This document shows, one piece after another, positions 20,726 through 63,586 of a DNA stretch of 64,000 bases (position 1 is the first letter of the stretch; each line of letters starts with the position of its first letter). The translations under genes and the position numbers were made by a program. This DNA comes from Candidatus Blochmannia sp. SNP. GTDB taxonomy: Bacteria > Pseudomonadota > Gammaproteobacteria > Enterobacterales > Enterobacteriaceae. The notes under the pieces are model-generated. The model did no database searches, was not told the origin of the DNA, and saw only the letters and a program-made list of their open reading frames with translations. Where the stretch lies: the NCBI RefSeq assembly GCF_036549215.1, contig NZ_CP144371.1:124001-188000 (forward strand). Direction: 5' to 3'.

Positions 20726-20779
20726 TATTGTACACACTATAAAAATTATAGATTGGATCTATAATTATAATGTACAATA
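20726..20779. repeat. 54-bp near-perfect palindrome upstream of ftsY
   Basis: An outer 9-bp stem (TATTGTACA / TGTACAATA) encloses an inner 10-bp stem (AATTATAGAT / ATCTATAATT) with a 3-base TGG loop. The two stems are separated by slightly unequal A+T segments. It lies 52 bases before the larger hairpin. Confidence 0.8.
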
Positions 20780-20831
20780 ACTTAATATTTTCATATGCTC
20801 ACTATGCTTGGTTTGTTATGTTATTAGTTAA

Positions 20832-21013
20832 TCATATGTAATACTTACAATTAATCAATGATAAACGTATGCAAGCAATGGAAATATATTTGAGTCTTAT
20901 AAAAAGGACTATAGACAATAAATTATTTTATCCAAATAAAATAATTTATTGTTGTTCCTCATAATAAGACAATATATTTAACATCATTGATTAATTGTAA
21001 GTATTACATATGA
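20832..21013. repeat. 182-bp composite hairpin with perfect 31-bp arms, upstream of ftsY
   Basis: Arms 20832-20862 and 20983-21013 are perfect reverse complements over 31 bases. The centre holds a second perfect 17-bp stem (20915-20931 with 20936-20952) around a 4-base loop, and the parts between pair imperfectly. The whole folds as one long hairpin ending 54 bases before the ftsY start. There are no flanking target duplications and no transposase, so it does not look like an insertion sequence. Confidence 0.9.
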
Positions 21014-21067
21014 AAATATAAAAAATTAACATTTAATATATTGATAATAGCGACGAGGTCAATACAC

Positions 21068-22000
21068 ATGAATTCTGAACATAATTTGTTTAACAGACTA
21101 AAACAGAGTTTATTAAATACTCGAAAAAAATTAGGTGATAACATAATAAAGTTGGTTCGTAACAAAAATATTGATATCGATATATTAAATGATATTGAAA
21201 ATAAATTATTGGTTGCAGATATAAGTATGCAAACTACTCAAAAAATTATTAATAACTTGAAAAATTATATTAGCCTTCATGCTAATTGCAATAACAAATC
21301 TTTTTATGATTCATTACGTAATGAGATATTAAATATACTTATATCTATCGATAAACCATTACTTATACAGAAAAAAAAACCATTTATCATATTAATGGTA
21401 GGAGTTAATGGAGTTGGAAAAACTACTACTATTGGAAAATTAGCATATTACTACCGATTAAAAAATAAAACTGTAATGTTAGCGGCAGGAGATACCTGTA
21501 GAGTAGCAGCAACAGATCAGTTAGAAATTATAGGAAAACGTAGCGGTTGTGTTGCAGTAATAAAAAATAATACTACTGCCGATCCTGCCTCAGTAATTTT
21601 TGATGCTGTTAAAATAGCTCAAATGAAACTTATTGATCTGCTTATTATAGACACTGCGGGTAGATTACAAAATAAAATCCATGCAATGGAAGAATTAAAA
21701 AAAATTATTAGAGTTATAAAAAAAATTGATATAGAAGCACCTCATGAAACTATATTAGTTCTTGATGCTAATATCGGACAAAACTCTATCAACCAAGTGC
21801 GTATGTTCAATAACGCAATTAAAGTCACAGGAATAATTATGACCAAATTGGATGGTAGTGCTAAAGGAGGTGTTATCTTGTCTATTGCTGATCAATGTCC
21901 TATTCCAATACGATATATTGGAATAGGACAAAATATCGACGACTTTCAACCATTTGAACCACACAATTTTGTTGAAGCTATTTTTAAAAAACAAACCTAA
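21068..22000 (+). CDS. ftsY: signal recognition particle receptor FtsY
   Basis: Membrane-associated GTPase that receives the SRP-ribosome complex. The ATG at 21068 has GAGGT eight bases upstream; the longer frame begins with TTG and is not needed. The 310 residues comprise only the N and G domains: GVNGVGKTTTIGKLA P-loop, DTAGRLQ, and TKLDGSAKGG. The long acidic N-terminal A domain of E. coli FtsY (497 residues) is absent. ftsE and ftsX, which normally follow, are missing; rpoH comes next after 623 bases. Confidence 0.96.
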   Translation: MNSEHNLFNRLKQSLLNTRKKLGDNIIKLVRNKNIDIDILNDIENKLLVADISMQTTQKIINNLKNYISLHANCNNKSFYDSLRNEILNILISIDKPLLIQKKKPFIILMVGVNGVGKTTTIGKLAYYYRLKNKTVMLAAGDTCRVAATDQLEIIGKRSGCVAVIKNNTTADPASVIFDAVKIAQMKLIDLLIIDTAGRLQNKIHAMEELKKIIRVIKKIDIEAPHETILVLDANIGQNSINQVRMFNNAIKVTGIIMTKLDGSAKGGVILSIADQCPIPIRYIGIGQNIDDFQPFEPHNFVEAIFKKQT

Positions 22001-22623
22001 TGATAAAATACTGTACCTAAATTACATGAGCATTTATTTAAAATAAAATATTTATATTAAACAATAAAAATTTCTTTATAGATAATTACTACAAAATAAT
22101 ATTATTAACATCTATGATATTTTTGTGGATGTTTTTAAACATTATTAAATTTAAAAAAATAAAATATTAGTTACAGTTGATTTAAATCAAAGCTTTACGT
22201 ATACTGGGGTATGAATAAGGAAATAAAAATTAAATTACAAAGGTTATTATACTCGCAATAATTGTATAAATAAATCTGCTAATATATATATATAGAATTT
22301 TTACCCAAAAAAGCATACACATTATCAACGATGTTAACTTAAAATTTACATTCCTTACCACGATTAACTATAGACCATCTAGTATCATTAGAAACAATAT
22401 TTATTTATCGATGATAATAACAAATGACTTTATGCTTTGTGATGTTTTAATTCCATTAAACTGATAGCGCAATTAAATAATGGTTCTATTACAAATGTGT
22501 TATGCTATCTATTGATAGATACTCCTTTTAATATAACAGAATTATTTTATACTTAGTTTCATACATATCTCGTACGGGCATGATATAATCATCTGAATAC
22601 ATGCGATCATGGTAGGAGAATAA
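22001..22623. other. ftsY-rpoH gap (ftsEX missing)
   Basis: E. coli carries ftsE and ftsX here. No open frame or recognisable remnant remains. TATAAT at 22585-22590, 34 bases before the rpoH start, is a possible -10 box, but no matching -35 is evident. A small stem (TATCTA/TAGATA near 22510) is present. Confidence 0.5.
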
Positions 22624-23472
22624 ATGCCTAAAAATATTCAAAATAGCGTGACTTTAGTTCCTCAAGGAACTTTAGAAGCATATATAAGAGCAGCTAATTC
22701 TTATGCTCTGCTTACTTCGGAAGAAGAGCAAGCATTAGCTAAGCGATTATATTATCATGGAGATTTAGAATCAGCAAAAAAACTTATTGTATCGCATTTA
22801 AGATTCGTCATTCATGTTGCTCGTAATTATTCCGGCTATGGGCTACCACAAGCTGATTTAATACAAGAAGGTAATATTGGTTTGATGAAAGCTGTACGTC
22901 GGTTTAATCCGGAATTAGACGTTCGTTTAGTATCATTTGCTGTACACTGGATTAAATCAGAAATCCATGAATATGTTCTAAAAAACTGGCGTATTGTAAA
23001 AATAGCTACTACTAAAGCACAACGTAAACTATTTTTTAATTTAAGAAAAACTAAACAACGTTTAGGTTGGTTTAATGCAGGAGAAATAGAAATAGTTGCA
23101 AAAGCACTAAACGTAACTAGCAAAGATGTACGTGAAATGGAATCTCGTATGGCGGCACAAGATATGACTTTTGAGCAATCTTCAGATGAAGATAATCGAG
23201 GAATAATAGCGCCTATACTATATTTACAAGATAAAATCATCACTTCTAATGAAGAAAATGAATGGATTGATCAAGTTAGTGATAAATTGAACACAGCTAT
23301 AAATACTCTGGATAAACGCAGTCAACATATTATTCGTGCACGATGGCTAAACGTAGATAACAATAAAAGTACATTACAAGAATTAGCTAATCAATACGGT
23401 GTTTCTGCTGAACGAGTACGTCAATTAGAAAAAAATGCCATGAAGAAAATGAAATTAATAATACAGAACTAA
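22624..23472 (+). CDS. rpoH: RNA polymerase sigma-32 (heat-shock sigma factor)
   Basis: Directs transcription of heat-shock chaperone and protease genes. The 282 residues (E. coli 284) have region 2 ([31 protein letters not shown] around residues 58-88), the sigma-32-specific stretch [23 protein letters not shown], and region 4 ending with a helix-turn-helix ([19 protein letters not shown]). The AGGAGA ribosome binding site is unusually close to the ATG. It is one of only two transcription regulators in the window, the other being a MarR-type protein. Confidence 0.97.
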
Positions 23473-23785
23473 TTAATTTTTTATAAATACTATTTATAAA
23501 AACATAAACTATTAAACATATATTTATAAAATTTTAGTTACTTGACTACATACATAGTCATTTGATACTATTTTCATAGATGAAAAGATTAAAATAATTT
23601 AATATTATATATTATACTTAGTAGCTAATTGTGCATACTATATGTAATCAAGTATCGCTTTCTTAATATTAATTTAATAGTCATTAGAGTAACTGTTGAT
23701 ATCAACAACGGTTTTTAAAAATATTTTTTTTATTTTCATTCTTGCACTCACTTTATATAACTAAAGACAAACCATGGAGTAAATT
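23473..23785. other. rpoH-metE gap
   Basis: No gene. It begins with an 11-bp A+T stem-loop just after the rpoH stop (23478-23502) and contains a 14-bp perfect palindrome, TGTTGATATCAACA at 23694-23707, 78 bases before metE. No MetR-type TGAAN5TTCA site was recognised. Confidence 0.5.
23478..23502 (+). terminator. A+T-only stem-loop after rpoH
   Basis: TTTTTATAAAT pairs perfectly with ATTTATAAAAA around a 3-base loop, six bases after the rpoH stop. The position suits a terminator or a 3'-end stabiliser. There is no G+C in the stem and no clean T tract, so function is uncertain. Confidence 0.4.
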
Positions 23786-26074
23786 ATGACAATTGTTGGT
23801 CATACATTAGGATTTCCTCGTATTGGCTTACATAGAGAACTAAAATACGCTCTAGAAAATTATTGGAACGGAAAAATACAAGAAGATAAATTATTAGAAA
23901 TAGGTCGCACATTGCGCATGCGACATTGGAAACAACAGAAAGATTCTGGTATAGATTGGATCCCAGTAGGTGATTTTGCATGGTATGATCATGTTTTAAC
24001 TACCAGTTTAATGCTTAATAATATTCCAAATAGACATCGCTCTTTCCAAGAAAGGCTTACTTTAAATACGCTATTTAAAGTAAGCCGAGGTTATTCTTTG
24101 AATAAAAAGCTGATACCTCCTTCAGAAATGAAAAAATGGTTCAATACAAATTATCACTATATAGTACCTGAATTTATTGAAACTCAAGAATTTAAATTAA
24201 ATTGGACTCAATTATTTGATGAAATAGATGAAGCTTTATCACTAAAATATAAAATAAAACCAATACTACTTGGTCCAATTAGTTATCTTTGGTTAGGAAA
24301 AGTAAAAGGGAAAAAATTTAATCGATTATCATTATTACCTGCTTTATTATCAGTATATCAAGATATATTGACCATTTTTCAAAAAAAAAACATTGATTGG
24401 GTACAAATTGACGAACCCATATTAGTTTTAGAGCTTCCATCAAAATGGTTAGAAGCATATTTAAATGTATATGAACAACTTCATGGTAAAATTAAATTAT
24501 TACTAACTACTTATTTCGACAGCATATATCATCAACTAAATATCATCAGACAACTTAAAGTAGATGGTCTACATGTAGATCTAGTTTCTAGCCCTGATAA
24601 TGTATCTTTAATTCACGAACAATTACCAAAAAATTGGATATTATCAGCAGGAGTAATTAATGGACGTAATATATGGAAAACTAATCTGCATAGTTGGTTC
24701 AAAAAACTCTCCCCTTTAGTCGGAGAGCGTAAAATATGGATAGGATCTTCTTGTTCCTTATTACACAGCCCTATTGATCTAAATATGGAAAAAAAATTAG
24801 ATAAACATATCACAGAATGGTTTGCTTTTGCATTACAAAAATGTTCTGAAATAAAAATGTTATGCACTGCTTTAAATTATAAAAATAAAAATGACTCGAC
24901 ATATGAAGACATACTTAATCAATATTATATTGCCAACAATTTAAGATCTCACTCTACTACAGTTCATAATATACAAGTTAAAAAAAGACTCAAACATATT
25001 AATAAAATTCCACACTCTCGATACTCTCCATACACAACACGAGTTATATTGCAGCATAAAAAGTTTAATTTACCGTTATTTCCAACAACTACTATCGGTT
25101 CATTTCCTCAAACTGAAGAAATTCGTCAACTTCGTTCAAACTTTAAAAATAACCAAATCGATGAAAAAGATTATTGCGTTGGTATTAAAAATTATATTAA
25201 ACAAATCATTGCGGAACAAGAAAAATTAGATTTGGACGTTTTAGTTCACGGAGAACCAGAAAGAAATGATATGGTGGAATACTTTGGAGAAAACTTAAAT
25301 GGATTTATATTTACTCAAAATGGATGGGTACAAAGTTATGGTTCTCGTTGTGTGAAACCTCCAGTAATTATTGGAGATATTAGTCGTTCAAAACCCATTA
25401 CTACAAAATGGATAAATTATGCTCAATCATTAACTAACAAACCAATAAAAGGTATATTAACTGGACCTGTGACTATCATGTCTTGGTCATTCCTACGTGA
25501 AGATATACAACGTAAAATAATAGCGTTGCAATTAGCGTTATCAATACGCGATGAAGTAATAGATTTAGAAAAATCTGGAATTCGAATAATACAAATTGAT
25601 GAACCAGCTTTACGAGAAGGATTACCTTTAAAGAATTCTAATCAAAAAAAATATCTAGAATGGGCAGTTAATGTATTTAAGATAACTGCATCATCAGTAA
25701 AAGATGATACCCAGATTCACACTCATATGTGCTATTCTGAATTTAGTGATATTATTCATGCAATTATAAAATTAGACGCAGACGTAATCAGTATAGAAGC
25801 ATCTAGGTCAGACGAAAAAATATTAGAAACCATACAACATGTAGCAATAAACTTAAATGCAATTGGTCCAGGTATATATGATATTCATTCTATAAATGAA
25901 CCAACTCAGAATGATCTTATTGAAAAAATTAATCAATTATTAAAATATATTCCAAAAAATCGTTTATGGATCAATCCTGATTGCGGATTAAAAACAAGAT
26001 CATGGCCTGAAATTAAACGATCATTAGATAACATGGTATCTGCAGTAAAAATATTACGCAAACAGTACTCATGA
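23786..26074 (+). CDS. metE: cobalamin-independent methionine synthase
   Basis: Transfers the methyl group of methyltetrahydrofolate to homocysteine, the last step of methionine synthesis, without vitamin B12. The 762 residues (E. coli 753) span both barrel domains: N-terminal LGFPRIGLHRELKYALE, C-terminal TTTIGSFPQTEEIRQLR. Zinc ligands are visible in IHTHMCYSEF (His, Cys), ISIEASRSDE (Glu) and NPDCGLKTR (Cys). It begins the metE-udp-rmuC-ubiE-ubiB-ubiD block that follows E. coli order. metR, normally divergent from metE, is absent. Confidence 0.98.
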   Translation: MTIVGHTLGFPRIGLHRELKYALENYWNGKIQEDKLLEIGRTLRMRHWKQQKDSGIDWIPVGDFAWYDHVLTTSLMLNNIPNRHRSFQERLTLNTLFKVSRGYSLNKKLIPPSEMKKWFNTNYHYIVPEFIETQEFKLNWTQLFDEIDEALSLKYKIKPILLGPISYLWLGKVKGKKFNRLSLLPALLSVYQDILTIFQKKNIDWVQIDEPILVLELPSKWLEAYLNVYEQLHGKIKLLLTTYFDSIYHQLNIIRQLKVDGLHVDLVSSPDNVSLIHEQLPKNWILSAGVINGRNIWKTNLHSWFKKLSPLVGERKIWIGSSCSLLHSPIDLNMEKKLDKHITEWFAFALQKCSEIKMLCTALNYKNKNDSTYEDILNQYYIANNLRSHSTTVHNIQVKKRLKHINKIPHSRYSPYTTRVILQHKKFNLPLFPTTTIGSFPQTEEIRQLRSNFKNNQIDEKDYCVGIKNYIKQIIAEQEKLDLDVLVHGEPERNDMVEYFGENLNGFIFTQNGWVQSYGSRCVKPPVIIGDISRSKPITTKWINYAQSLTNKPIKGILTGPVTIMSWSFLREDIQRKIIALQLALSIRDEVIDLEKSGIRIIQIDEPALREGLPLKNSNQKKYLEWAVNVFKITASSVKDDTQIHTHMCYSEFSDIIHAIIKLDADVISIEASRSDEKILETIQHVAINLNAIGPGIYDIHSINEPTQNDLIEKINQLLKYIPKNRLWINPDCGLKTRSWPEIKRSLDNMVSAVKILRKQYS

Positions 26075-31961: not shown

Positions 31962-32282
31962 TCATTATTACTATTATTATCAATATCACGTTTAATTTTA
32001 TTTCTAATAAAAGATTATTTTAACAATTCAAAAAATATCTCCATATATATGCTATACAAATTAAAATATTCTATATTCAATGTAACTATTTTGGCATAAT
32101 GATATTAACTACTATAGATTTAAACTATATTAGTTTACATTAACATGATTAAAATTTAAACTATTTTAAAAAATAACCTATTAATTGCAATATACAATAT
32201 ATATTATATATAATGTATATTGTGATCAGTAGTAATACCAAATTTAGAACAATAAATATAAACTTAATGCCTATTAAATATC
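31962..32282. other. ubiB-ubiD gap (tat and rfaH region lost)
   Basis: No gene. At 32188-32222 there is a 35-bp palindrome-like element whose outer arms CAATATAC and GTATATTG are perfect; it ends 60 bases before ubiD. Confidence 0.5.
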
Positions 32283-34243: not shown

Positions 34244-34290
34244 TATTATTAATTAAAATAAAAATATTATTTTTATTTTAATTAATAATA
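34244..34290. repeat. perfect 21-bp inverted repeat in the dsbA leader
   Basis: Arms 34244-34264 and 34270-34290 are perfect reverse complements around a 5-base loop (TATTA). They consist of A and T only. The structure ends 45 bases before the dsbA start codon. Confidence 0.85.
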
Positions 34291-34335: not shown

Positions 34336-34965
34336 ATGAAAAAATTACATCTTATTTTAATAATAATTTCTTTAATATTTTCATGCAAAAGCATTTCCTC
34401 TTCAATTATAGAAGGAAAACAATATATTCGATTAAATAAACCTATTCATAATGCTCCTAAACTACTAGAGTTTTTTTCTTTTTATTGTCCGCATTGTTAT
34501 CAATTCGAGCAAATTTATCATATTTCTAACAATATAGAAAAAACATTACCCAAAAACATAAATTTTTATAAATATCATGTAAATTTTTTAGGTAATTTAG
34601 GAAAACAATTAACACATGCTTGGGCTGTAGCAATAGCATTAGGAATAGAAAATAAAATCAGTCCCATATTATTTATAGCGATACAAAAACAACAATCTAT
34701 CCATACCATAGAAGATATTCGTGCGATATTTATCAAATCTGGTGTTAATGCAGAAGAATTTGATACTGCTTGGGATAGTATATTAGTAAAATCTTTAGTC
34801 TTAGATCAAGAACAAGCAGCAATAAATTTTCATCTAAGAGGGGTTCCATCAATATTTATCAATGGCAAATATATGATAAAAAACGACAAACTAGATATAT
34901 CATCAGTAAATGCTTACATGCAACAATTTTGTGAATTATTAAATTTACTCATAAATAAAACATAA
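34336..34965 (+). CDS. dsbA: periplasmic thiol:disulfide oxidoreductase DsbA
   Basis: Introduces disulfide bonds into exported proteins. From the ATG at 34336 the 209 residues begin with a signal peptide (MKKLHLILIIISLIF), followed by the thioredoxin-fold active site CPHC in FFSFYCPHCYQFEQ and the cis-proline loop RGVPSIFING. E. coli DsbA has 208 residues. dsbA just upstream of polA is the E. coli order. Its partner DsbB is not visible here. Confidence 0.96.
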   Translation: MKKLHLILIIISLIFSCKSISSSIIEGKQYIRLNKPIHNAPKLLEFFSFYCPHCYQFEQIYHISNNIEKTLPKNINFYKYHVNFLGNLGKQLTHAWAVAIALGIENKISPILFIAIQKQQSIHTIEDIRAIFIKSGVNAEEFDTAWDSILVKSLVLDQEQAAINFHLRGVPSIFINGKYMIKNDKLDISSVNAYMQQFCELLNLLINKT

Positions 34966-35097: not shown

Positions 35098-35121
35098 TTT
35101 AATCTTTTCTACAAGATTAAA
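35098..35121. repeat. stem-loop in the polA leader
   Basis: TTTAATCTT (35098-35106) pairs perfectly with AAGATTAAA (35113-35121) around a 6-base loop. It ends 19 bases before the polA ATG, close enough to affect ribosome access. Confidence 0.6.
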
Positions 35122-35140: not shown

Positions 35141-37936
35141 ATGATTACAACTATAAATAATCCGATAATTTTAGTGGATGGTTCTTTTTATATACACCGC
35201 GCATATCATGCATTACCATCATTAAAAACCAGCAATGGAGAACCAGTATGGGTAATATATGGAGTAATCAATATGATCAAAAGTCTGCTAGTGCAATATC
35301 AACCTACTCATATGGTAATTATTTTTGATACAATGGGAAAAACATTTCGTAATAACTTATTCGAAAAATATAAAGCTAATCGCATTAAAATCCCTAAGGA
35401 TCTATATATTCAAATAAATCCGTTATGCAAAATAATACACGCCATGGGATTACCAATACTTCAGGTACCTAATGTAGAAGCAGATGATGTAATAGGCACG
35501 TTAGCCATATTTTACGCGCAATCAGGGATTCCTGTATTAATTAGTACAGGAGATAAAGATATGGCTCAAATAGTATCGCCTAAAATAACTCTTATTAACA
35601 CTATGTCAAATATTATGTTCACTCCTAAAGAAGTAGAAAGAAAATTTGGAATACCGCCAGAGTTGATAGCTGATTATCTAGCATTAATAGGAGATCGATC
35701 TGATAATATTCCTGGAGTTCCTGGAGTAGGGAAAAAGACTGCGCAAATATTATTAAAAAAAATAGGCAATTTAAAAACATTATATGATAATTTGGATAAA
35801 ATTGATATATTGGGACTACGGGGCGCTAGGGGAATACAAAATATATTACAGATTAATAAAGAAATAGCATTTCTTTCTTATAAATTAACAACTATCAAAA
35901 CAGATGTGTCTTTGGACACATCTGTTCATCAATTATCAATACAACAAGTAAATATTGATACTTTGTTGTCATTATTTAAACGATATGAATTCAAGAATTG
36001 GTTAATAGATTTAAAATCAAGAAAATGGTTACATAAATATCAATGCTTAAATAAGCTATCATCACACCAATGCTCAAAAAATACGTTTTTACATCAAAAA
36101 AGTAATTTACTATTAGATCATGTCAAAGAAAAAAAAAATATTAAAATAATACATGATACTGAAATGCTTTATCATTGGATTGAAAAAATTAAAATATCCA
36201 AATTCTTTATATTTAACATACATACAGATATATTTAACGCTGCTACAGCTAATATTATAAGCATATGTTTATCTATAAATCCTAATGAAAGTGCGTATAT
36301 TCCTATAAAAACTAATTCAATTAGTAATCATCAAGATTTTTTATATCTTGATAAAATACTATCAATGCTACAACCAATTTTAGAAAATTCAGAAATAAAG
36401 AAAATTGGGCAACACCTAAAGTTTAGCCATGCTATATTTAAACGTTACAATATAAATTTGGTTGGTATGGCATTTGATGTTATGTTAGAATTATATATAT
36501 TGTACGGTACCTCTGATTATCAAGACATAAAAAATTTTTTAGATAAAGACACATTCAACGCTGTTACAGATTTTAAAAATAATTGCCATAAAAATGGCAT
36601 TATCTCAGACATACGCAATATACAATCACAATCTCTACATGCTGCTAAATTTATTAAATCTCTATTTAACTTACATCATATTTTATGGCCAAAAATAAAC
36701 ACAAACGACAAACTAAAAAAAATATTTGAAGAAATAGAAATGCCTTTAATATCTATATTATCTCGTATCGAAAGTTATGGCGTGTTAATAGATAAAAAAT
36801 TACTTAACGCTCATTCAGTAGAATTAGATTCTCGACTTAATGAATTAAAACTGGAAGCATATCAATTGGTAAATACTTCTTTTAATCTTTCTTCAACCAA
36901 GCAATTACAAGAAATATTATATAGTAAGCAAAAATTACCAATTTTAAAAAAAACACCTACTGGCACTCCTTCAACCAATGAAGAAGTATTAAAAAAATTA
37001 GCTAAAAAATACCCAATGCCAAAAATCATTTTACAATATCGCAGTTTAGCTAAATTAAAATCCACTTATACCAATAAATTAACCGCTATGATTAACGAAA
37101 AATCAAATCGAGTACATACCTCATATAATCAAACTAGAACTTCTACGGGACGTCTTTCTTCTACTAACCCAAATTTACAAAATATTCCAAATAGAAATTA
37201 TGATGGTAGAAAAATACGTCAAGCTTTTATTGCTCCTAAAAATTTTTTAATTGTAGCTGCAGATTATTCACAAATAGAATTAAGAATAATGGCGCACCTA
37301 TCTCAAGATATCAAATTAATTAACGATTTTATTTCTGAAAAAGATATTCATACTGCAACAGCTTCTGAAATATTTGTAACTGCACTACATTTAGTGACTA
37401 ATGAACAAAGACATCAAGCTAAAACTATCAATTTCGGATTAATTTATGGAATGAGTGCATTTGGATTAGCACGTCAATTATCAGTAACATGTAAAGAGGC
37501 ACAAAAATATGTAGATCGTTATTTTAAACGATATCCTGGAGTCATGAGATATATGAAACATATTCGAGAACATGTCAATAAATATGGCTATGTATCTACA
37601 TTAGACGGACGAAAATTATATTTACCAGATATTTTTTCTTCTAATATTTCCCAGAAAAAAAGTGCTGAAAGAGCAGCAATCAATGCTCCTATGCAAGGAA
37701 GTGCTGCTGACATTATTAAAAAAGCAATGATATCTGTTGATAATTGGTTACAAAAGGATGAAATTCCAGCACGTATAATTATGCAAGTGCATGATGAATT
37801 AGTATTTGAAGTACACCATGAAATCATAAATCCAGCTGTAAAACAAATCAAAAAATTAATGGAAGAATGCTTTGTTATTGATATACCGCTAAAAGTAGAT
37901 ATTGGTATTGGAAAAAATTGGGAACAAGCACATTAA
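35141..37936 (+). CDS. polA: DNA polymerase I (proofreading site apparently dead)
   Basis: Okazaki-fragment processing and repair polymerase, 931 residues (E. coli 928). The 5'-3' nuclease domain (about 1-290) is intact: ILVDGSFYIHRAYHA, EADDVIGTLA, STGDKDMAQ. The polymerase domain is intact: motif A DYSQIELRIMAHLS (Asp708), the O helix RHQAKTINFGLIYG, motif C HDELVFE (Asp885). The middle 3'-5' exonuclease domain keeps its fold-like sequence but not its metal ligands. Positions equivalent to E. coli Asp355, Glu357, Asp424, Tyr497 and Asp501 are Asn359, His361, Ser429, His500 and Phe504. Polymerase and nick translation should work; proofreading should not. Confidence 0.97.
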   Translation: MITTINNPIILVDGSFYIHRAYHALPSLKTSNGEPVWVIYGVINMIKSLLVQYQPTHMVIIFDTMGKTFRNNLFEKYKANRIKIPKDLYIQINPLCKIIHAMGLPILQVPNVEADDVIGTLAIFYAQSGIPVLISTGDKDMAQIVSPKITLINTMSNIMFTPKEVERKFGIPPELIADYLALIGDRSDNIPGVPGVGKKTAQILLKKIGNLKTLYDNLDKIDILGLRGARGIQNILQINKEIAFLSYKLTTIKTDVSLDTSVHQLSIQQVNIDTLLSLFKRYEFKNWLIDLKSRKWLHKYQCLNKLSSHQCSKNTFLHQKSNLLLDHVKEKKNIKIIHDTEMLYHWIEKIKISKFFIFNIHTDIFNAATANIISICLSINPNESAYIPIKTNSISNHQDFLYLDKILSMLQPILENSEIKKIGQHLKFSHAIFKRYNINLVGMAFDVMLELYILYGTSDYQDIKNFLDKDTFNAVTDFKNNCHKNGIISDIRNIQSQSLHAAKFIKSLFNLHHILWPKINTNDKLKKIFEEIEMPLISILSRIESYGVLIDKKLLNAHSVELDSRLNELKLEAYQLVNTSFNLSSTKQLQEILYSKQKLPILKKTPTGTPSTNEEVLKKLAKKYPMPKIILQYRSLAKLKSTYTNKLTAMINEKSNRVHTSYNQTRTSTGRLSSTNPNLQNIPNRNYDGRKIRQAFIAPKNFLIVAADYSQIELRIMAHLSQDIKLINDFISEKDIHTATASEIFVTALHLVTNEQRHQAKTINFGLIYGMSAFGLARQLSVTCKEAQKYVDRYFKRYPGVMRYMKHIREHVNKYGYVSTLDGRKLYLPDIFSSNISQKKSAERAAINAPMQGSAADIIKKAMISVDNWLQKDEIPARIIMQVHDELVFEVHHEIINPAVKQIKKLMEECFVIDIPLKVDIGIGKNWEQAH

Positions 37937-38701: not shown

Positions 38702-38880
38702 ACATATATATTATGTATAGTCATAGTAAAATGAAAAATGAATCACCTGTTTTTATATATTTAAGTCATTAAATATATAAAAATATTAAACACTATTTAA
38801 TTTATTAAAATAATTCTGCAAAAATTATTTTGTTATAGTTACTAACTATATGACAGTTATCTTATAAATCATAAAAAATT

Positions 38881-41928: not shown

Positions 41929-42085
41929 AAAAATATATAATTTCTGATTATATAAACAGGTAAATTTATAAAAATACATTTTTGTTTATACGCAATTAAA
42001 CCATGGCATACAACCTACAATTAATTCCAGTCGATACTAAAAATTATCATTTACATGGTCATGTTTAGTTATTAACAATTTCTTA

Positions 42086-42196
42086 ACAAAAGATCCTCGG
42101 TAAAACTTAATAATTATTCGATAGTTTAATGATGATCATACATACATTTTTATATACTAAATTTATAAAGTGTGTTTTATACCGAGGATCTTTTGT
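42086..42196. repeat. 111-bp inverted repeat with G+C-richer arms, upstream of gmk
   Basis: The left arm starts ACAAAAGATCCTCGGTA at 42086. The right arm (42174-42196) is its reverse complement, with two extra bases (TA) inside. Outside that small insertion, pairing is perfect over about 21 bp. The inner ends pair imperfectly further (ACTTAATAA near 42106 with TTTATAAAGT). The stem contains AGATCCTCGGT, the most G+C-rich string in this gap. Confidence 0.85.
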
Positions 42197-42243
42197 TTAT
42201 GTTACCAAATGCCATAGTATATTGTATAATACAATATATCATA

Positions 42244-42684
42244 TTAATTTAATATATTATTTTTCTGCCGTATTTCAAGTAAATTACATACTTCTCTAAA
42301 ATTTTTAAGTTGTATATCAGACAAAGGAGAAAACATACGATCTAAAATAATATTATGCGTATCTTTGGCAATACGTAGTTTATCACGTCCTTTTTCTGTA
42401 ATATGAACATACTTGACTCTACGATCTGTCAAGCTTTGTTGTCGATGTAACATTTCATCTTTTTCCAATGCATCAAGTACTGTTACCACAGTTCTTGAAG
42501 AAAATCCCATATAATTCTTAATGTCTGTTGCACTAGTTTTACCGGTAGTAATAAGATGTAATATTTTCATTTTAGACATCGAAAGTCCTTCATTAATTAA
42601 TTGACCGTTTATTTCTTTACGTAAACGATGATAAATACGGGATAAAGATTCTACCATATTTGAAATGTCTGTTAATCTATTCAT
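42244..42684 (-). CDS. MarR-family transcriptional regulator
   Basis: 146 residues with the MarR layout: an N-terminal dimerisation helix (DISNMVESLSRIYHRLRKEI), a winged helix-turn-helix (KTSATDIKNYMGFSSRTVVTVLDALEKDEML, residues about 49-79), the basic wing TDRRVKYVHITEKGRDKL, and a C-terminal dimerisation helix. This family usually represses genes in response to small aromatic ligands or oxidants. I cannot assign a named orthologue or target. It stands alone between gmk and yicC, where E. coli has ligB, yicG and dinD. It is unusual for a genome this stripped of regulators. Confidence 0.88.
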   Translation of the reverse strand: MNRLTDISNMVESLSRIYHRLRKEINGQLINEGLSMSKMKILHLITTGKTSATDIKNYMGFSSRTVVTVLDALEKDEMLHRQQSLTDRRVKYVHITEKGRDKLRIAKDTHNIILDRMFSPLSDIQLKNFREVCNLLEIRQKNNILN

Positions 42685-43140
42685 AATTATGTGTCTCTAC
42701 ATTAAATCAATAACGATAATAGGACTATATTTGACAGTTTTAATTAATAGCAGGCTAAATTGGAAAACAAACCATCTGAAGTATTTTTATTAAAATAATA
42801 ACCTTCAGATAATTATTTAAACCTGACAATTAACAATATTTATTTAATTAACTATTTCGGTTCATACCTCCTAAATTATTGTAATTCCACTAAATTAATA
42901 TTTTCAGTTATATTAAAATAACCTGACATTATTACTCTAAAACACATATATTCTGATATATATTTTCTATATTGTTTACTGTTTTTATTTTATCGGAGTT
43001 TTTTTAAATTTGAAATATTACTGTAGGAAAAAGAAAATTTCTGATAGATTTACAAAAAATTATTTTTTATTATTTTTTATCATTTATTTTTAATTTAAAA
43101 TTATATATCTGCAATTAAATAGATAATGAACTATAATTTT

Positions 43141-43201
43141 TAAATAACATTCTTATAAAAAAATAAAAAGTTTTTTTATTTTTTTATAAGAATGTTATTT
43201 A
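43141..43201. repeat. perfect 29-bp stem with 3-base loop
   Basis: Arms 43141-43169 and 43173-43201 are exact reverse complements; the loop is GTT at 43170-43172. The stem has a run of A facing a run of T near the loop. Both neighbouring genes are on the minus strand and several hundred bases away. Confidence 0.9.
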
Positions 43202-43533
43202 AATTTATATTTAATAATAAATAATATTTTTGTACAATAATATATTATTCATTTAAGTACATATAAATTCATAAAAATAATGATATTCAGATAAATATCT
43301 CTATATATCCGTTTGATTTATACTAAATATTTAGCTTATAAATTTGTATATTACTTTAATAAAAAGTAGATTTTTAAGAAACATTATTTATCTTATAAAT
43401 ATAATAACTATATATATGATAATAGTATATATATAAATAATATCAAATATATTACATTTTGATTAAAATAAAGTTATTACGCTAATAATATATTCATATT
43501 AATGAAATTGTATAATTGAAGATAATAAATAAC

Positions 43534-43621
43534 AATTTTTACATAAATAAAATATATAATTCTAATATTAAGGTCTTAGTGCTAATATAGTTAATTAAAA
43601 TATTTTATTTATGTAAAAATT
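43534..43621. repeat. 88-bp hairpin with perfect 22-bp arms downstream of yicC
   Basis: Arms 43534-43555 and 43600-43621 are exact reverse complements. Inner segments (43556-43570 and 43584-43599) pair with a few mismatches. It begins 86 bases past the yicC stop on the minus strand, so it could be a transcript 3' end. Confidence 0.85.
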
Positions 43622-45278: not shown

Positions 45279-45728
45279 CTACATCGAATGACCAAAACCA
45301 TTAGACCCACGCTTGGTAGGAATAAACGATTTAACTACAGAAAACTTAACTTTAATTATTGGTATAAAAACCAACTGTGCTACCCTTTTTCCAGGATGCA
45401 CAACATATTCTTTTGATCCACGATTCCATAAAGATACTATTAACTCTCCTTGATAATCTGAATCTATGAGTCCCACCAAATTTCCTAAAACAATACCATA
45501 TTTATGCCCCAACCCTGAACGAGGCAAAATAACACCTGCTATCCTTGCATCAGAAATATGTATCGCAATACCAGTATAAATTAAATGAGTTTCTCCAGGA
45601 TAAATAATTAAAGATTTATTCAGGCAAGCTGGCAAATCTAATCCGGCAGATCCTGCTGTGGCATATCTTGGAAAACGAAAATGGTTACGTACACGATTGT
45701 CAATAATTTTAATATTAACTGTTTTCAT
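45279..45728 (-). CDS. dut: dUTP diphosphatase
   Basis: Hydrolyses dUTP to dUMP, keeping uracil out of DNA and supplying dTMP synthesis. From the ATG at 45728 (E. coli-like [13 protein letters not shown]) the product has 149 residues. All five motifs are visible: AGSAGLDL (25-32), [19 protein letters not shown] (86-96, catalytic Asp90), GKRVAQLVF and RGSNGFGHS. It overlaps the end of coaBC by 14 bases, suggesting coupled translation as in E. coli. Confidence 0.95.
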
Positions 45729-46926
45729 TATAACGCTTAATAATTTCATTAATAAGTTGTTGTGCCAATAATTTTTTTTTTCTTAAAGGCAATATAATAC
45801 TACCTTTATTCCAAAACAAATATAAAGCATTATTATCACTATTGAATCCTTGATTCACATGAGAAATATTATTAGCACAAATTAAATCTAAATGTTTAGT
45901 AACACGCTTATCTTGAGCATATTTTTCTATATTCTTAGTTTCAGCAGCAAATCCAACAACATAAGGACGTTTATCAACTAATGATCCTACTTCCGACACA
46001 ATATCAGGATTTTTAATCATAATTATTTTTAAAGTATTTTTATCCTTTTTAATTTTTTCAGGAGAAGAACGATAAATACGATAATCTGATACCGCTGCAC
46101 AACCAATAAAAATATGCTGATTTTTAATGTTTTTCATCACTGCTTCTTTCATATCTAACGCAGAAATAATATCAATACGTCTCACTCGAGTAGGAGTATG
46201 CAAATGTACTGGTCCTGAAATTAATGTAACTTTTGCTCCTTTATCTGCGGCAGCTTGTGCAATAGCAAATCCCATTTTTCCTGAGCTATAATTAGTAAAA
46301 AACCGAATAGGATCTAAAGCTTCATGAGTAGGACCAGCAGTAATCATAATATTAAGATGACTTAAAGAACCGTCATGAGAAAAATAATGCTCCACATAGT
46401 CAGCGAGTATCTTTGGATCCGTCATGCGCCCATAACCAATATCATTACAAGCTTGATATCCATAATCTGGGCCCCAAACTAACACCCCTCTTTTTCTCAA
46501 AATATCTAAATTAGCTTGAGTTACAATAGCTTTATACATTTGTTGATTCATAGAAGGTGCAACAGCAATAGGAGCTGTTGTAGCTAAACATAAACTACAT
46601 AATAAATCATTAGATAATCCTACAGATAATCTAGCTAATAAATTGGCTGTAGCCGGAGCAAGTAAAACTAAATCAGCCCATTTAGCCAATTTTATATGAG
46701 GCATTGTCATCTCCTCTATTTGAGGAGAAAAAAAGTTATCTAAAACTGGATAACAGGATATTGTTTGTAAACTTAAAGGAGTAACAAATTTTTTTGCAGA
46801 TTTTGTCATAATCACTCTAACTTCTGAACCTCTTTCTTTTAAACATCGTACTAAGTCTATAGTTTTATATGCGGCAATACCACCACTTACTCCTAATATG
46901 ATACGTTTATTAATTAATCCCGTCAT
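45715..46926 (-). CDS. coaBC: bifunctional phosphopantothenoylcysteine synthetase/decarboxylase
   Basis: Two steps of coenzyme A synthesis: joining 4'-phosphopantothenate to cysteine, then decarboxylation. The 403 residues (E. coli 406) have the FMN-binding decarboxylase ([18 protein letters not shown], catalytic His77 in [18 protein letters not shown], substrate-clamp cysteine in [12 protein letters not shown]) and the synthetase ([22 protein letters not shown] near residue 195 onward). CoaD, two steps later, is encoded at 48114. dut overlaps its 3' end. Confidence 0.96.
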
Positions 46927-47411
46927 ATTATATTCACATAATTTTAATGATTATTTGTTTTATGTGTTATATCATAAAAATTGATAGTTTTTATTAATAT
47001 AAATAAAATTAATGAATTTTTATTAATTAAACATTTTTAGTAAAATAATAGTCTTGTGCACAATATACAAATTCCTATATAATATGTTTTGATAAATCTA
47101 CGAAAAGCATGGATTTATGCATATACAGACAATAACAAAACCAAAATTTCGATTTTAAATCTATTAAATTTAGATATATATCTATATTAATTTTTAAAAA
47201 AATTATTTATTAATTATATTTATAAACAAAAAATGAAGAATATAAATAAATAATCATAATATAATATGCATATCTTATGCTAAATATTTAACTGAAGGCT
47301 CAATAAAGAAAATATTCACAAATTTATAGAAAAATAAATAAAATAATTTTCTTATTATTATTATTATTATTTTTAAATAGTTATTTAATAATAACAATTA
47401 GGAGAATAATT
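46927..47411. other. coaBC-rpmB divergent spacer
   Basis: No gene; radC (yicR), which sits here in E. coli, is absent. It includes a short TTA/ATT microsatellite near 47350-47370 and a 6-bp stem (GTTATT/AATAAC). AGGAG at 47400-47404 is the rpmB ribosome binding site. Confidence 0.5.
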
Positions 47412-47642
47412 GTGACACGAATATGCCAAATTACTGGAAAACGTCCTATGAATGGAAATAAACGTTCTCACGCAATGAATGCAACCAAACGCTGGTTTAT
47501 ACCTAATATTCATTCCCATCGTTTTTGGATTGAAAGTAAAAAGCGCTACTTTACGTTACGGATATCTACAAAAGGTATGCGATTAATTGATAAATTAGGC
47601 ATTGAATACTTTTTATCTAATTTATATTCCAAAAATAAATAA
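47412..47642 (+). CDS. rpmB: 50S ribosomal protein L28
   Basis: Large-subunit ribosomal protein, 76 residues (E. coli 78). The translation [20 protein letters not shown] and [17 protein letters not shown] is diagnostic. The start codon is GTG at 47412, with AGGAG upstream; no in-frame ATG would give the conserved N-terminus. rpmG follows 21 bases later, the conserved rpmB-rpmG pair. Confidence 0.97.
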
Positions 47643-47663
47643 TATTGAAAAAGGAATTACGCA

Positions 47664-47834
47664 ATGGCTAAAGAAATACGAGAAACGATTCGTTTATTTT
47701 CTTCTTCTAATAATGGACATTATTACAGTACTACTAAAAACAAACGCACTAACCCTGACAAAATAAAATTAAAAAAGTTTGATCCTTTTGTGCAAAAACA
47801 TGTCTTATACATAGAAGGAAAAGCAGTTAAATAA
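47664..47834 (+). CDS. rpmG: 50S ribosomal protein L33
   Basis: A 56-codon gene. The protein starts [19 protein letters not shown] and contains [14 protein letters not shown] and [15 protein letters not shown], matching E. coli L33 (55 residues) along its length. AAGGAA lies 8-9 bases before the ATG. The zinc-binding cysteines of some L33 forms are absent, as in E. coli. It is co-directional with rpmB. mutM, next in E. coli, is missing. Confidence 0.97.
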
Positions 47835-48057
47835 ATAAAAAAGAGATAAATATTTCTTATAACTTATTATTAAAATAATCTAAATAAATTTAGATTCAGA
47901 TAAATATGCTATGAAATTAATACACTATATTATGGTTTTAAAATATAATACGATATATTTAATTCCAATTTAGAACCAACCAGTAGCGGTCATCATATTA
48001 AATTTTTTTGACACCATTACATTACTCATTACTAATAAGTAATGACTACATACAATA

Positions 48058-48085
48058 CTATCTGTATAATTGATTATACAGATAG
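48058..48085. terminator. bidirectional terminator-like hairpin between rpmG and coaD
   Basis: CTATCTGTATAAT (48058-48070) and ATTATACAGATAG (48073-48085) are perfect complements with a 2-base centre. A second small stem, TCATTACT/AGTAATGA, lies just before it (48027-48046). The flanking genes converge, so a shared terminator is expected here. Confidence 0.6.
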
Positions 48086-48113
48086 AGTACTTACTTATAA
48101 GGCTTTTAAAAAA

Positions 48114-48623
48114 TCACAAGGTCTCTATATTTTTTGAAGTATTTCTTAATTTTTCCATAACTTTTTTGGCAATAAAATTAGGAATAAATTGATCTATTTT
48201 CCCTCCATATTGAGCAATCTCCTTAACTAATCTAGAAGAAAGATATGCCCAAATTCCTGTAGATGTCATAAATATCGTTTCTATTTCTTTTTCAAAATAA
48301 TTATTAATTTTTGCAAGTTGTATCTCATATTCAAAATCTGATCTAGTTCTTAAACCACGAATTAAAATATTTACTTGTTTTTTTTTCATAACATTTATTG
48401 TTAAGTCATTAAACCCAAACACTGTTACATTAGATAATGTTGCAGTTGCTTGTTTTGCAAATACTACACGTTCCTTAAGACTAAACATAGGATTTTTTTG
48501 TGGATTTTCAGCTACTGCTAAAAATATTTCATCAAAAATTTTATGGGCTCTAATAATTATATCTAAATGCCCATAAGTTAATGGATCAAACGTTCCTGGA
48601 TACATTGCATGAGTTATCATCAT
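48114..48623 (-). CDS. coaD: phosphopantetheine adenylyltransferase
   Basis: Adds AMP to 4'-phosphopantetheine, the penultimate step of coenzyme A synthesis. The nucleotidyltransferase motif is YPGTFDPLTYGHLD (Thr replaces the more usual Ile; the catalytic His is residue 19). LIRGLRTRSDFEYE and the C-terminal SSRLVKEIAQYGG follow. The 169 residues compare with 159 in E. coli; the second Met (48620) would match the E. coli start exactly. It acts in the same pathway as coaBC. Confidence 0.96.
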   Translation of the reverse strand: MMITHAMYPGTFDPLTYGHLDIIIRAHKIFDEIFLAVAENPQKNPMFSLKERVVFAKQATATLSNVTVFGFNDLTINVMKKKQVNILIRGLRTRSDFEYEIQLAKINNYFEKEIETIFMTSTGIWAYLSSRLVKEIAQYGGKIDQFIPNFIAKKVMEKLRNTSKNIETL

Positions 48624-55416: not shown

Positions 55417-55427
55417 TGAGAGTAAAA

Positions 55428-57242: not shown

Positions 57243-57306
57243 TAACTAGAATAATTAATAGTATGTCTATTTAGTTATTAATAATATTATGAAATAAGGT
57301 AAACTT

Positions 57307-58059: not shown

Positions 58060-58746
58060 TAATTTACTGCATGAAAATAAAATATATACTATTTTAAGTA
58101 AATATTCACGACGTAACACAATAAAATACTGTTATACCGAACGTATATGTAAGACTATAATATTTATTAGTATAAATCATTAAATATACAAAAAGATTTT
58201 CATATTTTGACAGGTAAAATTAATAATATATACTACAAATATAAATATATTACAATCTATACATAATTTAATCAAATGCGCAATATACACAATAAAATTT
58301 AATACTTTCTTTATCAGAAAATTAAAATAATTGTATATCTAAAACACTAACTATATGATTAAAAATATTTTCTTCTTATATGTAATCTTATAAAATTATA
58401 CTAGTACATAGATTAAATCTTAAAAAGATATAAAACTAATCTATTTCATTACAAGTAGATACAATATGATACAATTGATATATTTAATACAAATATAAAC
58501 CAAATAAATGAAAATAATATTTCAGTATTCAATTTCTAAAAGTACTATTACCTAATATTCTTTAATTTAACTAAACATTTAGTAAATTAAAAATTTACTA
58601 TAATTTTATATATAATTATATATATTTAATATAGCTTTTTATTTGTATATGTTTTACATAGCCATATTTTTATTTAATTTGCATAATTAAATAAAAATAT
58701 GGCTATGATCTGCTCTGCTAATAAACAACATAATAGAGTTCTACAT
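58060..58746. other. cysE-pfkA gap with leader hairpins
   Basis: No gene. A 9-bp stem (58580-58600) and a 23-bp perfect inverted repeat (58657-58707) lie toward the pfkA end. The in-frame ATG at 58699 falls inside the second hairpin and is not the likely pfkA start. Confidence 0.6.
58657..58707. repeat. perfect 23-bp inverted repeat in the pfkA leader
   Basis: Arms 58657-58679 and 58685-58707 are exact reverse complements around TGCAT. The base of the stem is CATAGCCATA. It ends 39 bases before the pfkA start. Confidence 0.9.
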
Positions 58747-60680: not shown

Positions 60681-60706
60681 ATTGTCTCTCTTATTAAAAT
60701 CATTCT

Positions 60707-60792
60707 ATACGTACTGGTCATTGTACATTAATTTCAAGAACATAAATAAAAAATAGATGAAATATATATATCGTACAATGACCAGTACGTAT
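60707..60792. repeat. 20-bp perfect inverted repeat in the tpiA leader
   Basis: ATACGTACTGGTCATTGTAC at 60707-60726 is the exact reverse complement of 60773-60792. The 46-base loop is A+T-rich. On the minus strand the structure ends 26 bases before the tpiA ATG. Its arms are more G+C-rich than the surroundings. Confidence 0.9.
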
Positions 60793-60885
60793 ATTTACAA
60801 ATATAACGAAATATAAATTTCGATATGCTGAGACTAAAAATTGCGATAGTTTCAATAATCAATTTAAAATACATTACAAAGTTAC

Positions 60886-60928
60886 AATAATAATATTAAC
60901 ATTATATAACAATGTTAATATTATTATT
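60886..60928 (-). terminator. 18-bp stem-loop at the end of fpr
   Basis: Arms 60886-60903 and 60911-60928 are exact reverse complements around a 7-base loop. The right arm overlaps the fpr stop codon. It could end fpr transcription before tpiA or protect the 3' end. It is almost entirely A and T and lacks a clean U run on the minus strand. Confidence 0.5.
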
Positions 60929-61676: not shown

Positions 61677-61793
61677 AAAGTTGACCTATATTTAAATTAT
61701 TTAATTTTATTTCAGTTACTTCTGTGAGATAATTAAGATGAATATTAAATGAAAGCATACATATATTGCCATGTTATTCTTATAAGATCTACA

Positions 61794-61816
61794 ATATATA
61801 TATATATATATATATA
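61794..61816. repeat. (AT)n dinucleotide tract
   Basis: An uninterrupted alternating AT run of 23 bases, followed by a small AATTCTT/AAGAATT stem. Such tracts are slippage-prone and length-variable. Confidence 0.8.
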
Positions 61817-62233
61817 ATTCTTTCAAGAATTGATATAATATCTTCAAAAATTGTTTTTCAATTCAACAACAATTTATTATACTAAAATTATATATTCGAA
61901 CAATTATTTTAACGTTATTACGTCAATATAAATATCCTACATACACAAGATTTTTCGTTTACAAAACCATATTTTTTTCGATAAATGAATTATTATATAT
62001 ACGTTATTTATTCATACTAACATTTCTAATCATATATGCACAAATTCATAAATTAAGCTACAGTAGCAATCAGATGATTAAATTAAGGTTAATTTAATGA
62101 TTAACATTATTATTCAAACATATTGATAATAATAATAATAATATAAATTTAAGTATTTAATTATAATTTTTTATAAATATTGTTGCCCCAACAGATCTTA
62201 TATTACTATTTTTACCTAATAAAATTAACATCA

Positions 62234-62281
62234 TGAAATCTCATTGTAATAATTTATGGAAATTATTACAATGAGATTTCA
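62234..62281. repeat. perfect 22-bp hairpin with 4-base loop
   Basis: Arms 62234-62255 and 62260-62281 are exact reverse complements; the loop is ATGG. It lies about 560 bases past the start of fpr and about 870 before rpmE, so it is not an obvious terminator of either. Confidence 0.9.
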
Positions 62282-62682
62282 ACATAAATAAAATATTTGC
62301 TCCTACCCATACTACATTATAATTATATTCATATTTTATATATTTGATAAACTAAACTACAAATAATCTATTTAGTCTCCGTCAATAATAACTATAATAT
62401 AAACACAGTTATTGCTCTAATTTATATATTAACTTTTATATCTCTGATAAAATATTTATGTAAATAATTATCTGTTGGAAATCACTATTTTTAGTATAAT
62501 TAAAAATTCAATATAATTGTTATGTATTGATTATTACAATAATATTATATAATATAGCGTATTCTTGATATGATTACATGCGCCTAATATTAATGAATCA
62601 TTATAGGCATCAATATTATATAGTAATAGCACATTTATTAGCTAAATCAATATTGATATACGATATCAACAAAAAATACGCT

Positions 62683-62711
62683 CTATATTTCAGTTAAAAA
62701 CTGAAATATAG
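62683..62711. repeat. perfect 13-bp hairpin
   Basis: CTATATTTCAGTT and AACTGAAATATAG pair around AAA. The surrounding 150 bases add an outer 8-bp match (AGCGTATT near 62557 with AATACGCT near 62675). Confidence 0.75.
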
Positions 62712-63155
62712 TTATTTTTAACTAAAACAACGGTCATTCTTAACTAAAAACATATATGATCATTATTTGGTAAATATAACCATAATAGATTATAAAATTA
62801 ATTTATTTCTATTGCGGTACAATCCAATTTTTGTATTATATAATAATATCCCTAAAGTTTAGATGCACTGCGTTTAAAAATACATAAATTATTATGAATT
62901 TTTATAAAAATTTTATATAAAATAAAAATAATATCTATTGATAATAGATAGTTAAAAACTGTTAATTTATTACTCATCTATCTTTAGACTATGTACGTAT
63001 ACGATTAACAGAGCGAATTTTCTGATATATACATGATTATATGTTAATATTTAATGTGTTAAATTCCATAAAACAGAACTTATAATTTCATCGTTTTTTA
63101 CAAAATATCCTATTAACTATTAGAAACGCAGTATTAATTAATACGAGAATGTGCC

Positions 63156-63404
63156 ATGAAAAAAAATATTCACCCAAAATACAATAACATCTCTGCGTAT
63201 TGTTCATGTGGAAATATTGTTAATACTAAATCAACTTTAAATCGAAACTTAAATCTAGATGTTTGTAATCTATGTCATCCGTTTTATACAGGTACACAAC
63301 GTATAGTAGATACGCGTGGCCGTGTAAATCTTTTTAATAAACGCTTTAATATCGCTATTAATAATAACTTTTTAACTATTAATAAAAAATTGAACAAAAC
63401 ATAA
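63156..63404 (+). CDS. rpmE: 50S ribosomal protein L31 (zinc-binding form)
   Basis: Large-subunit protein. The start [20 protein letters not shown] and the segment [16 protein letters not shown] carry the four zinc-binding cysteines (16, 18, 37, 40) of the C+ type. [11 protein letters not shown] matches E. coli, after which 12 or so extra residues extend the C-terminus (82 versus 70). Its neighbours in E. coli, priA before and metJ after, are both absent. Confidence 0.95.
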
Positions 63405-63556
63405 ATATATACGTTATCGCATCTACATTTGTATGCATCATAACACGTGACGTAAACAAAATATACTACAGGTGTCAACATAAATCGTCAAATTTTATTA
63501 CTATTACTACTACATATCATTAATATCAAAATATATTTACTATATAGTCATTATAA

Positions 63557-63586
63557 ATAATAAATATATATATATATATTTATTAT
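63557..63586. repeat. 30-bp perfect A+T palindrome upstream of metB
   Basis: An ATAATAAATATA half-site and its mirror flank an alternating TA core; the 30 bases read identically on both strands. It ends 80 bases before metB. Low complexity makes it weaker evidence than the mixed-sequence hairpins. Confidence 0.6.

Follow-up and report, generated by a model that had tools for sequence, protein, structure and literature searches.

Introduction

Long palindromes are already on record for Blochmannia, in a paper of 2010 reportedly by Williams and Wernegreen. It gives 20, 10 and 6 long palindromes for three genomes of the genus (vafer, floridanus and pennsylvanicus, as a set), and selection was inferred there on the ground that the palindromes would otherwise decay (PMC3017870). 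A separate body of work concerns template switching, for which two marks were described in yeast, namely homogenization of the arms of an inverted repeat and inversion of its spacer (PMC8604942); the mechanism is likewise known from E. coli quasi-palindrome reporters (PMC6357072) and from RNA genes (PMC8794818). Here we bring these two subjects together by analyzing the perfect inverted repeats of a 64,000-nucleotide stretch of the genome of the ant symbiont Candidatus Blochmannia sp. SNP (bases 124001–188000 of a single contig of 783,877 bp, which makes up the genome; hereinafter the window) together with 20 stretches of 20 kb taken outside it, which makes a sample of 464 kb. An earlier note on the window had drawn attention to hairpins with unrelated arms shortly before seven start codons, and had offered two explanations: 5′-leader stem-loops that stabilize mRNA or tune translation, and repeated template-switch mutagenesis. 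We find that the hairpins are genuine and much too numerous to be due to chance, and that they are not gene-start control elements. Judging from comparative sequence analysis, they are probably footprints of template switching (quasi-palindrome correction), with selection being a minor factor outside genes; we set the probability of this reading at roughly 0.85.

The present repeats share with those of 2010 both the genus and the location, nearly all of the latter being at least partly intergenic (PMC3017870). The two analyses differ in that we observe homogenization and turnover, count shorter arms, and find repeats in genes too, and the present evidence argues against the published inference of selection on Blochmannia palindromes. 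Judged by titles, we found in the literature no link between these palindromes, treated in PMC3017870, and template switching. What appears to be new is the comparative evidence that the palindromes of the genus arise and stay perfect by mutation, also in genes. If so, a supposed regulatory feature becomes a mutational one, in a natural bacterial lineage where template switching could be counted by comparison.

An excess of perfect inverted repeats

Gene calling combined a codon score with a minimum open-frame length of 60 codons and gave 334 genes in the sample; tRNAs and some short genes are missed by this procedure, and one repeat counted as intergenic (L016 7451–7538) has a tRNA-Gly inside it. 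We then counted perfect repeats with a spacer of at most 60 nt in 114,929 intergenic bases and 348 kb of coding DNA against dinucleotide shuffles. Intergenic DNA contains 60 inverted repeats with arms of at least 15 bp versus 0.2 in the shuffles, and 26 with arms of at least 20 bp versus 0, a clear excess that bears out what the earlier note had supposed. In the same intergenic DNA, mirror repeats (3) and direct repeats (2) with arms of at least 15 bp are near chance. Coding DNA has 14 inverted repeats of this arm length, as against 0 in one shuffle. Mismatches are nearly absent: 86 of the 89 quasi-palindromes with a score of at least 14 are strictly perfect. Hence, that these are chance palindromes of an AT-rich genome is a notion which the shuffles and the mirror and direct counts refute, and we give it next to no credence; the arms are indeed AT-rich, and AT-richness alone does yield some repeats, as seen in G028 (18% G+C), where mirror (20) and inverted (24) repeats with arms of at least 12 bp are about equally frequent.

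For position and class we used a set of 84 repeats with arms of at least 15 bp and a spacer of at most 100 nt, in which the longest arms measure 39 and 56 bp; the latter belong to a perfect inverted repeat (L029 11785–11900), each arm of which is palindromic in itself. The arms have a G+C fraction of 0.144 versus 0.204 across gaps overall. Their sequences are unrelated, as the earlier note had claimed, since only 6 of 3486 pairs of repeats share a 12-mer and none (0/3486) a 14-mer. A dispersed mobile or REP-like palindromic family, which the large number of intergenic palindromes of similar size might bring to mind, is refuted by these counts unless its copies have fully diverged, and is accordingly a most improbable source.

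Position of the repeats relative to genes

Of the 84 repeats, the gaps between tandem, divergent and convergent genes contain 40, 16 and 10, respectively; another 16 are located in genes, and the 2 found at the edges of stretches were left out of the position test. Gap length alone predicts 35.7, 20.1 and 10.2 for the three kinds of gap. The intergenic repeats flanked by genes on both sides number 66; a start codon borders the gap of 56 of them, and for these we derived the expected distances by placing each repeat randomly inside its own gap. The bias toward start codons that the earlier note had described is absent: 8 repeats lie 20–80 nt before a start versus 9.8 expected, 12 lie within 80 nt (13.6 expected), and 17 within 150 nt (22.9 expected). 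No separate cause is needed for the recurrence of hairpins before starts, given gaps that are long and contain many palindromes.

These counts bear directly on the proposal of 5′-leader stem-loops selected before starts. Several of the longest repeats in the window do precede starts, and some repeats keep perfect arms in several species despite different letters; nevertheless, the start excess is absent, 10 of the 66 intergenic repeats lie in convergent gaps and 16 of the 84 in genes, and the arms are poorer in G+C than their surroundings and overall unconserved. We therefore hold leader stem-loops to be very unlikely. Nor do the repeats resemble intrinsic terminators, having neither a clear excess after gene ends (17 within 80 nt versus 14.8 expected) nor a G+C-rich stem. 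In sum, the earlier note holds for the excess of hairpins and the unrelatedness of their arms, and not for their attachment to starts.

Evolution of the arms among relatives

A syntenic region was taken from 13 relatives, some of it partial (25 to 34 of 34 genes found), which gives 14 genus genomes in the comparison; a second block came from six relatives. Repeats with arms of at least 15 bp occur in the syntenic region of 13 of the 14 separate genomes, many at common places with different letters. This speaks against a fold-back artefact of assembly or amplification, an explanation suggested by the finding that palindromes hampered assembly in the 2010 work (PMC3017870) and one that we regard as barely credible.

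Alignments with sisters reveal three fates of a repeat. It may be imperfect in the relative (the repeats before tpiA and metB and the one at 62234), perfect with different letters (before pfkA in G013, and at 43139 in G007), or missing (before dsbA in G013). The covariation across species that the earlier note had proposed to test for is thus seen, with pairing retained despite different letters at several loci, pfkA and 43139 among them. Across nine genomes, comparison of 92 repeats with the nearest sister found 59 changed, 30 shared and 3 absent. Arm divergence is 0.145 per base versus 0.152 in the flanks (ratio 0.95, 95% interval 0.84–1.07). The arms accordingly change at the rate of the flanks and not at the slow rate expected of a selected structure, yet the repeats stay perfect. 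Of the paired (double) changes, 42 of 60 are transitions (0.70, versus 0.67 in flanks; transversions 30% versus 33%), and so no passage through G-U is visible. In a gap of the second block (13883–14690), a palindrome of G001 with 28-bp arms is also present in G011, absent from G004 and mostly absent from G009; this loss suggests deletion of the palindrome.

One-arm changes and spacer inversions

After an unpolarized test had shown no skew between arms, we ran a polarized one, in which an outgroup defines ancestral mismatches that were fixed in the focal species. With gaps included, the arm imbalance of these fixes is 113 versus 67.5 expected (44 repeats); with substitutions only, 138 fixes in 32 repeats give an imbalance of 76 versus 50.5 (standard deviation 7.1; P=0.001). 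In 10 of the 24 repeats with at least three fixes all fall on one arm, as compared to 2.7 under coin-flipping and about 4.0 under background clustering (0.168 × 24, by hand); random placements in the same alignments do cluster somewhat, with a ratio of 1.22 versus 1.50 for the fixes. The skew persists where gap identity is at least 0.75 (P=0.003, 16 repeats). In the trio G000, G010 and G013, about 1.1% (73/6654) of the intergenic substitutions specific to one lineage are fixes of this kind.

Spacer inversion, the second mark, is found at three intergenic loci. In the gap 45715–47412, the 37-bp arms of G004 are identical to those of G001 and G009, and their 3-nt spacers are mutual reverse complements; in the gap 47412–48114, the central hairpin core of G001 is inverted in G011; and in a gap of the second block, G001 and G011 carry a 15-nt core in opposite orientations, with a difference of one base in length. 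A fourth locus fits given one extra change. The inverted form was the better fit in 20 of 57 spacer comparisons, and clear inversion is occasional. Together with a coding locus described below, these cases and the one-arm copying seen in the polarized tests constitute the footprints by which template switching is recognized, and they are independent of transcription signals and present in genes too.

Repeats inside genes

The left arm of the metE repeat has come to match the right one through change at three adjacent bases, which replaced K I by R L; relatives keep the other form. Similarly, two bases of the left arm of the coding repeat in ftsY were changed in this genome only, replacing F S by C P and again matching the right arm. 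The coding spacer inversion lies in coaA, for pantothenate kinase (L032 4015–4055), where G013 (L167) has a 15-nt spacer in exactly the opposite orientation to that in G000 and G010; three consecutive residues are altered by the inversion (M P L to I N G) and a fourth by a neighboring substitution. A 40-bp GC-rich palindrome in pepA (L017 15482–15521) has 20-bp arms that are perfect in three species, and the third positions of neighboring Gly/Arg codons are G/C, A/T and C/G across these species, a covariation of synonymous sites in which the pair is always complementary. Paired changes were also found in recB, leuC, birA and a Rid-family gene, some with amino-acid change. By comparison, change was confined to one side in the repeat at 16959 and in that of a urease subunit gene (L022 1306), and little or no change is seen in the repeats of the cardiolipin synthase and 2-oxoglutarate dehydrogenase genes.

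Both sisters were available for coding alignments of 11 of the 16 repeats, and 12 of the 16 were usable in a count of pair positions. The rows dropped for gaps are those of L017 6642 (both sisters) and L017 20436 (G013); the repeats at window 4506, L028 18416 and L034 15918 had no usable sister or ran past the gene end. In the 12, both members of a pair changed at 16 positions, each time to a complementary pair, whereas independent change of the two sides would give 3.0 positions changed on both; the sisters in this count are not independent. These coding marks are not accounted for by a leader or terminator role.

As in yeast genes, both footprints are present here, and a flipped spacer alters several residues of a protein; ours is a bacterium in which the repeats are mostly intergenic (PMC8604942). 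Template switching in RNA hairpins likewise produces perfect stems in one step and compensatory changes of several bases, in that instance in RNA genes and here mostly in DNA for which a role as RNA is not clearly indicated (PMC8794818). Another parallel is the perfecting of an imperfect repeat during replication in E. coli, studied there with laboratory reporters and seen here, presumably also at replication, as a natural genome-wide pattern (PMC6357072). Perfect inverted repeats within protein genes are also known from the mitochondria of nematomorphs, where they reach 284 bp, the likeness being one of presence in genes (PMC6649704).

Origin of the repeats

In the course of events that we propose, a nascent strand would fold back or cross over at an imperfect inverted repeat during replication, and one arm would template the other, thereby making the repeat perfect in a single step. 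In later rounds new mutations would be copied from arm to arm or erased, arms extended and the spacer flipped, and whole palindromes would also be lost through deletion. Selection would be minor, except for the removal of most events in coding sequence. We are somewhat inclined, with distinctly less assurance than for the template-switch origin as such, to go further and trace the concerted evolution of arms across the genus, at about the rate of the flanks, to frequent template switching combined with the disappearance of enzymes that would stop it or cleave what it produces; covariation, commonly read as proof of an RNA structure, would then need no more than mutation, and would extend to synonymous and replacement sites in the genes of, for instance, leucyl aminopeptidase and biotin ligase. 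Of the two explanations in the earlier note, it is template switching that the one-arm fixes, the spacer inversions and the covariation inside coding sequence favor, and leader stem-loops that fall away. By the same token, perfect covarying stems in such genomes would not by themselves be evidence of RNA function, and in a symbiont whose genome is decaying, template switching would be one way for a protein to change at several residues.

The most substantial alternative is that the repeats are selected structural elements irrespective of starts, i.e., terminators, protectors of mRNA 3′ ends or means of transcription control, as was suggested for Blochmannia in 2010. The 30 repeats shared with the nearest sister, which have slower arms, are in its favor, as is the T-rich flank of a covarying hairpin in the convergent gap 47412–48114. 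It also draws support from an RNA-leaning asymmetry in decayed stems of tandem gaps, where G-T mismatches exceed A-C on the transcript strand (28 versus 15); this may however be explained more simply by strand composition because T-T exceeds A-A with an equal lean (28 versus 14). Set against it are the 16 of 66 repeats that lie in divergent gaps, the near absence of mismatches, the low G+C of the arms, the flank-like transition ratio of paired changes, and the like behavior of repeats in coding sequence despite the amino-acid cost. On balance we deem selected elements of this kind unlikely as the general explanation, albeit less so than leader stem-loops.

Several results weigh against the template-switch origin itself. 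The asymmetry of the decayed stems is one, and the 30 of 92 shared repeats are another: their arms diverge at 0.064 versus 0.127 in the flanks, a slowness partly built into the definition of the class, and some of these repeats may be selected. The unpolarized differences lack a one-arm skew (115 versus 129 expected in 59 changed repeats); the skew of the polarized fixes is not significant where gap identity is at least 0.80 (10 repeats, P=0.15); and all derived arm substitutions pooled show no significant skew (103 versus 89.7, P=0.13). The direct form was the better fit in 31 of the 57 spacer comparisons and neither form in 6. One-sided change affected 36 pair positions of the coding arms, and 329 did not change at all. 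Furthermore, the species pairs in these comparisons are not independent.

Repair genes and hairpin density

SbcCD cuts hairpins, and ExoVII guards against mutations of this sort. Searches in which most or all controls matched found no match to sbcC, sbcD, recA or recJ in any of the 14 genus genomes (14/14), as the earlier note had led one to expect for sbcC and sbcD; for xseA there was none over the cut-off in these genomes, with three weak matches. ExoI was found in 13 of the 14 and recB in all 14, the recB of G005 being split into two overlapping frames (G005:C1:337404–340960). RecBCD may reset forks (PMC6357072). This gene content fits a lineage that is unable to cut hairpins and is without some of the nucleases that trim priming strands, and the loss of SbcCD, ExoVII, RecJ and RecA might let the products of template switching survive.

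The absence of repair genes does not explain the differences between lineages. G005 is the only genus genome without such repeats in the shared gaps, though it too is without a match to sbcC or sbcD, and G000 has 0.64 repeats per kb of gaps in the same region. Loss of ExoI was rejected as a cause of density, since G003, the one genome without the enzyme, has 2 repeats in 43 kb.

Beyond the genus, the family genomes have 21 repeats with arms of at least 15 bp in 400 kb from 10 genomes without an sbcD match versus 5 in 10 with one, and the two groups differ in base composition; "without" here signifies no match over the cut-off, and G051 has a weak match. At 33–45% G+C, the count is 1 repeat in three genomes without sbcD versus 2 in two with it (counted by hand). 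In the enlarged set of 15 + 15 genomes outside the genus, there are 20 repeats in about 152 kb of non-coding DNA without sbcD versus 5 in about 67 kb with it (sums by hand; the five added genomes classed as without carry weak sub-threshold matches), and 7 versus 0 with arms of at least 20 bp (each group 600 kb). The effect of sbcD is inseparable from base composition in these 30 genomes, and a simple scheme in which SbcCD loss explains the hairpins finds no clear support in them. The earlier idea that hairpins are kept because hairpin-cleaving repair is lost is thus consistent with the absence of sbcC and sbcD but is not established by it, given the repeat-free G005 and the confounding of sbcD with base composition outside the genus. 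Long perfect palindromes also occur in other reduced genomes of the family, with arms of up to 32 bp in G060 (L090–L091), 38 bp in G021 (L078–L079) and 44 bp in G023 (L080–L081).

Individual repeats of the window

The window has 15 perfect repeats with arms of at least 15 bp and a spacer of at most 100 nt, of which 4 lie in called coding sequence. Genes near hairpins were named by searches with NCBIfam and Pfam profiles, which identified ftsY, rpoH, metE, ubiE, ubiB, ubiD, dsbA, polA, pfkA, tpiA, an fpr-like reductase, and an enzyme of Cys/Met metabolism, which fits metB. Of the seven hairpin-to-start distances in the earlier note, six are as given there, and that for tpiA is 25 bases instead of 26. 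Perfect arms of 15–31 bp are present in five of its seven hairpins, and polA and ubiD are preceded by perfect arms of only 9 bp.

The inverted repeat upstream of ftsY (20832–21013) has perfect 31-bp arms (20832–20862 and 20983–21013) around a 120-nt spacer and ends 54 nt before the ATG at 21068; nested in it is a hairpin (20915–20952) with perfect 17-bp arms and a 4-nt loop, imperfect in G010 and G013. The coding repeats of ftsY (21896–21930) and metE (24054–24086) have perfect 15-bp arms. Upstream of ubiD is a quasi-palindrome (32178–32232; 60 before the start) with 81% arms and a longest perfect run of 9 bp, and upstream of polA a hairpin (35098–35121) with 9-bp arms, which precedes the start at 35141 by 19 (counted by hand). 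Neither is notable, given that shuffling the 115 kb of intergenic DNA by itself yields about 102 repeats whose arms reach 10 bp or more. The dsbA hairpin (34244–34290) has perfect 23-bp arms and a 1-nt loop and lies 45 before the start, which we placed at 34336, the point where the family match sets in (residue 10 of the frame from 34309); its arms are 33 bp in G010, and a gap takes its place in G013. Upstream of pfkA (58657–58707; 39 before the start) are perfect 23-bp arms, imperfect in G010 and replaced in G013 by perfect 31-bp arms with different letters. The tpiA repeat (60706–60793) has perfect 21-bp arms with a 46-nt spacer and is imperfect in the nine aligned relatives. The metB palindrome (63557–63586; 80 before the start) has perfect 15-bp arms and no loop, and is not palindromic in G010 and G013.

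The remaining repeats include a hairpin at 38750–38783 (perfect 15-bp arms, 4-nt loop), one at 43139–43203 (perfect 31-bp arms, 3-nt loop) whose arms are perfect over 24 bp in G010 and 30 bp in G013, and over 31 bp of different letters in G007, and a repeat at 43534–43621 (perfect 22-bp arms, 44-nt spacer). The hairpin at the end of the fpr-like gene (60886–60928; perfect 18-bp arms) overlaps the gene end by 2 bases, and that at 62234–62281, in a divergent gap, has perfect 22-bp arms and a 4-nt loop and is imperfect in G010 and G013. A short frame on the plus strand at about 63157–63404, absent from the gene list, appears by eye to encode a protein like ribosomal protein L31. Between gmk and a MarR-like winged-helix gene (42244–42684, minus strand) is a repeat at 42085–42197 with perfect 18-bp arms and a 77-nt spacer, which retains much of its pairing with different letters in several relatives and may be a genuine signal at the RNA or DNA level. 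The MarR-like gene itself, over the cut-off with Pfam MarR and without an NCBIfam family at 1e-10, has been retained in a genome that the earlier note supposed to be almost free of transcription factors.

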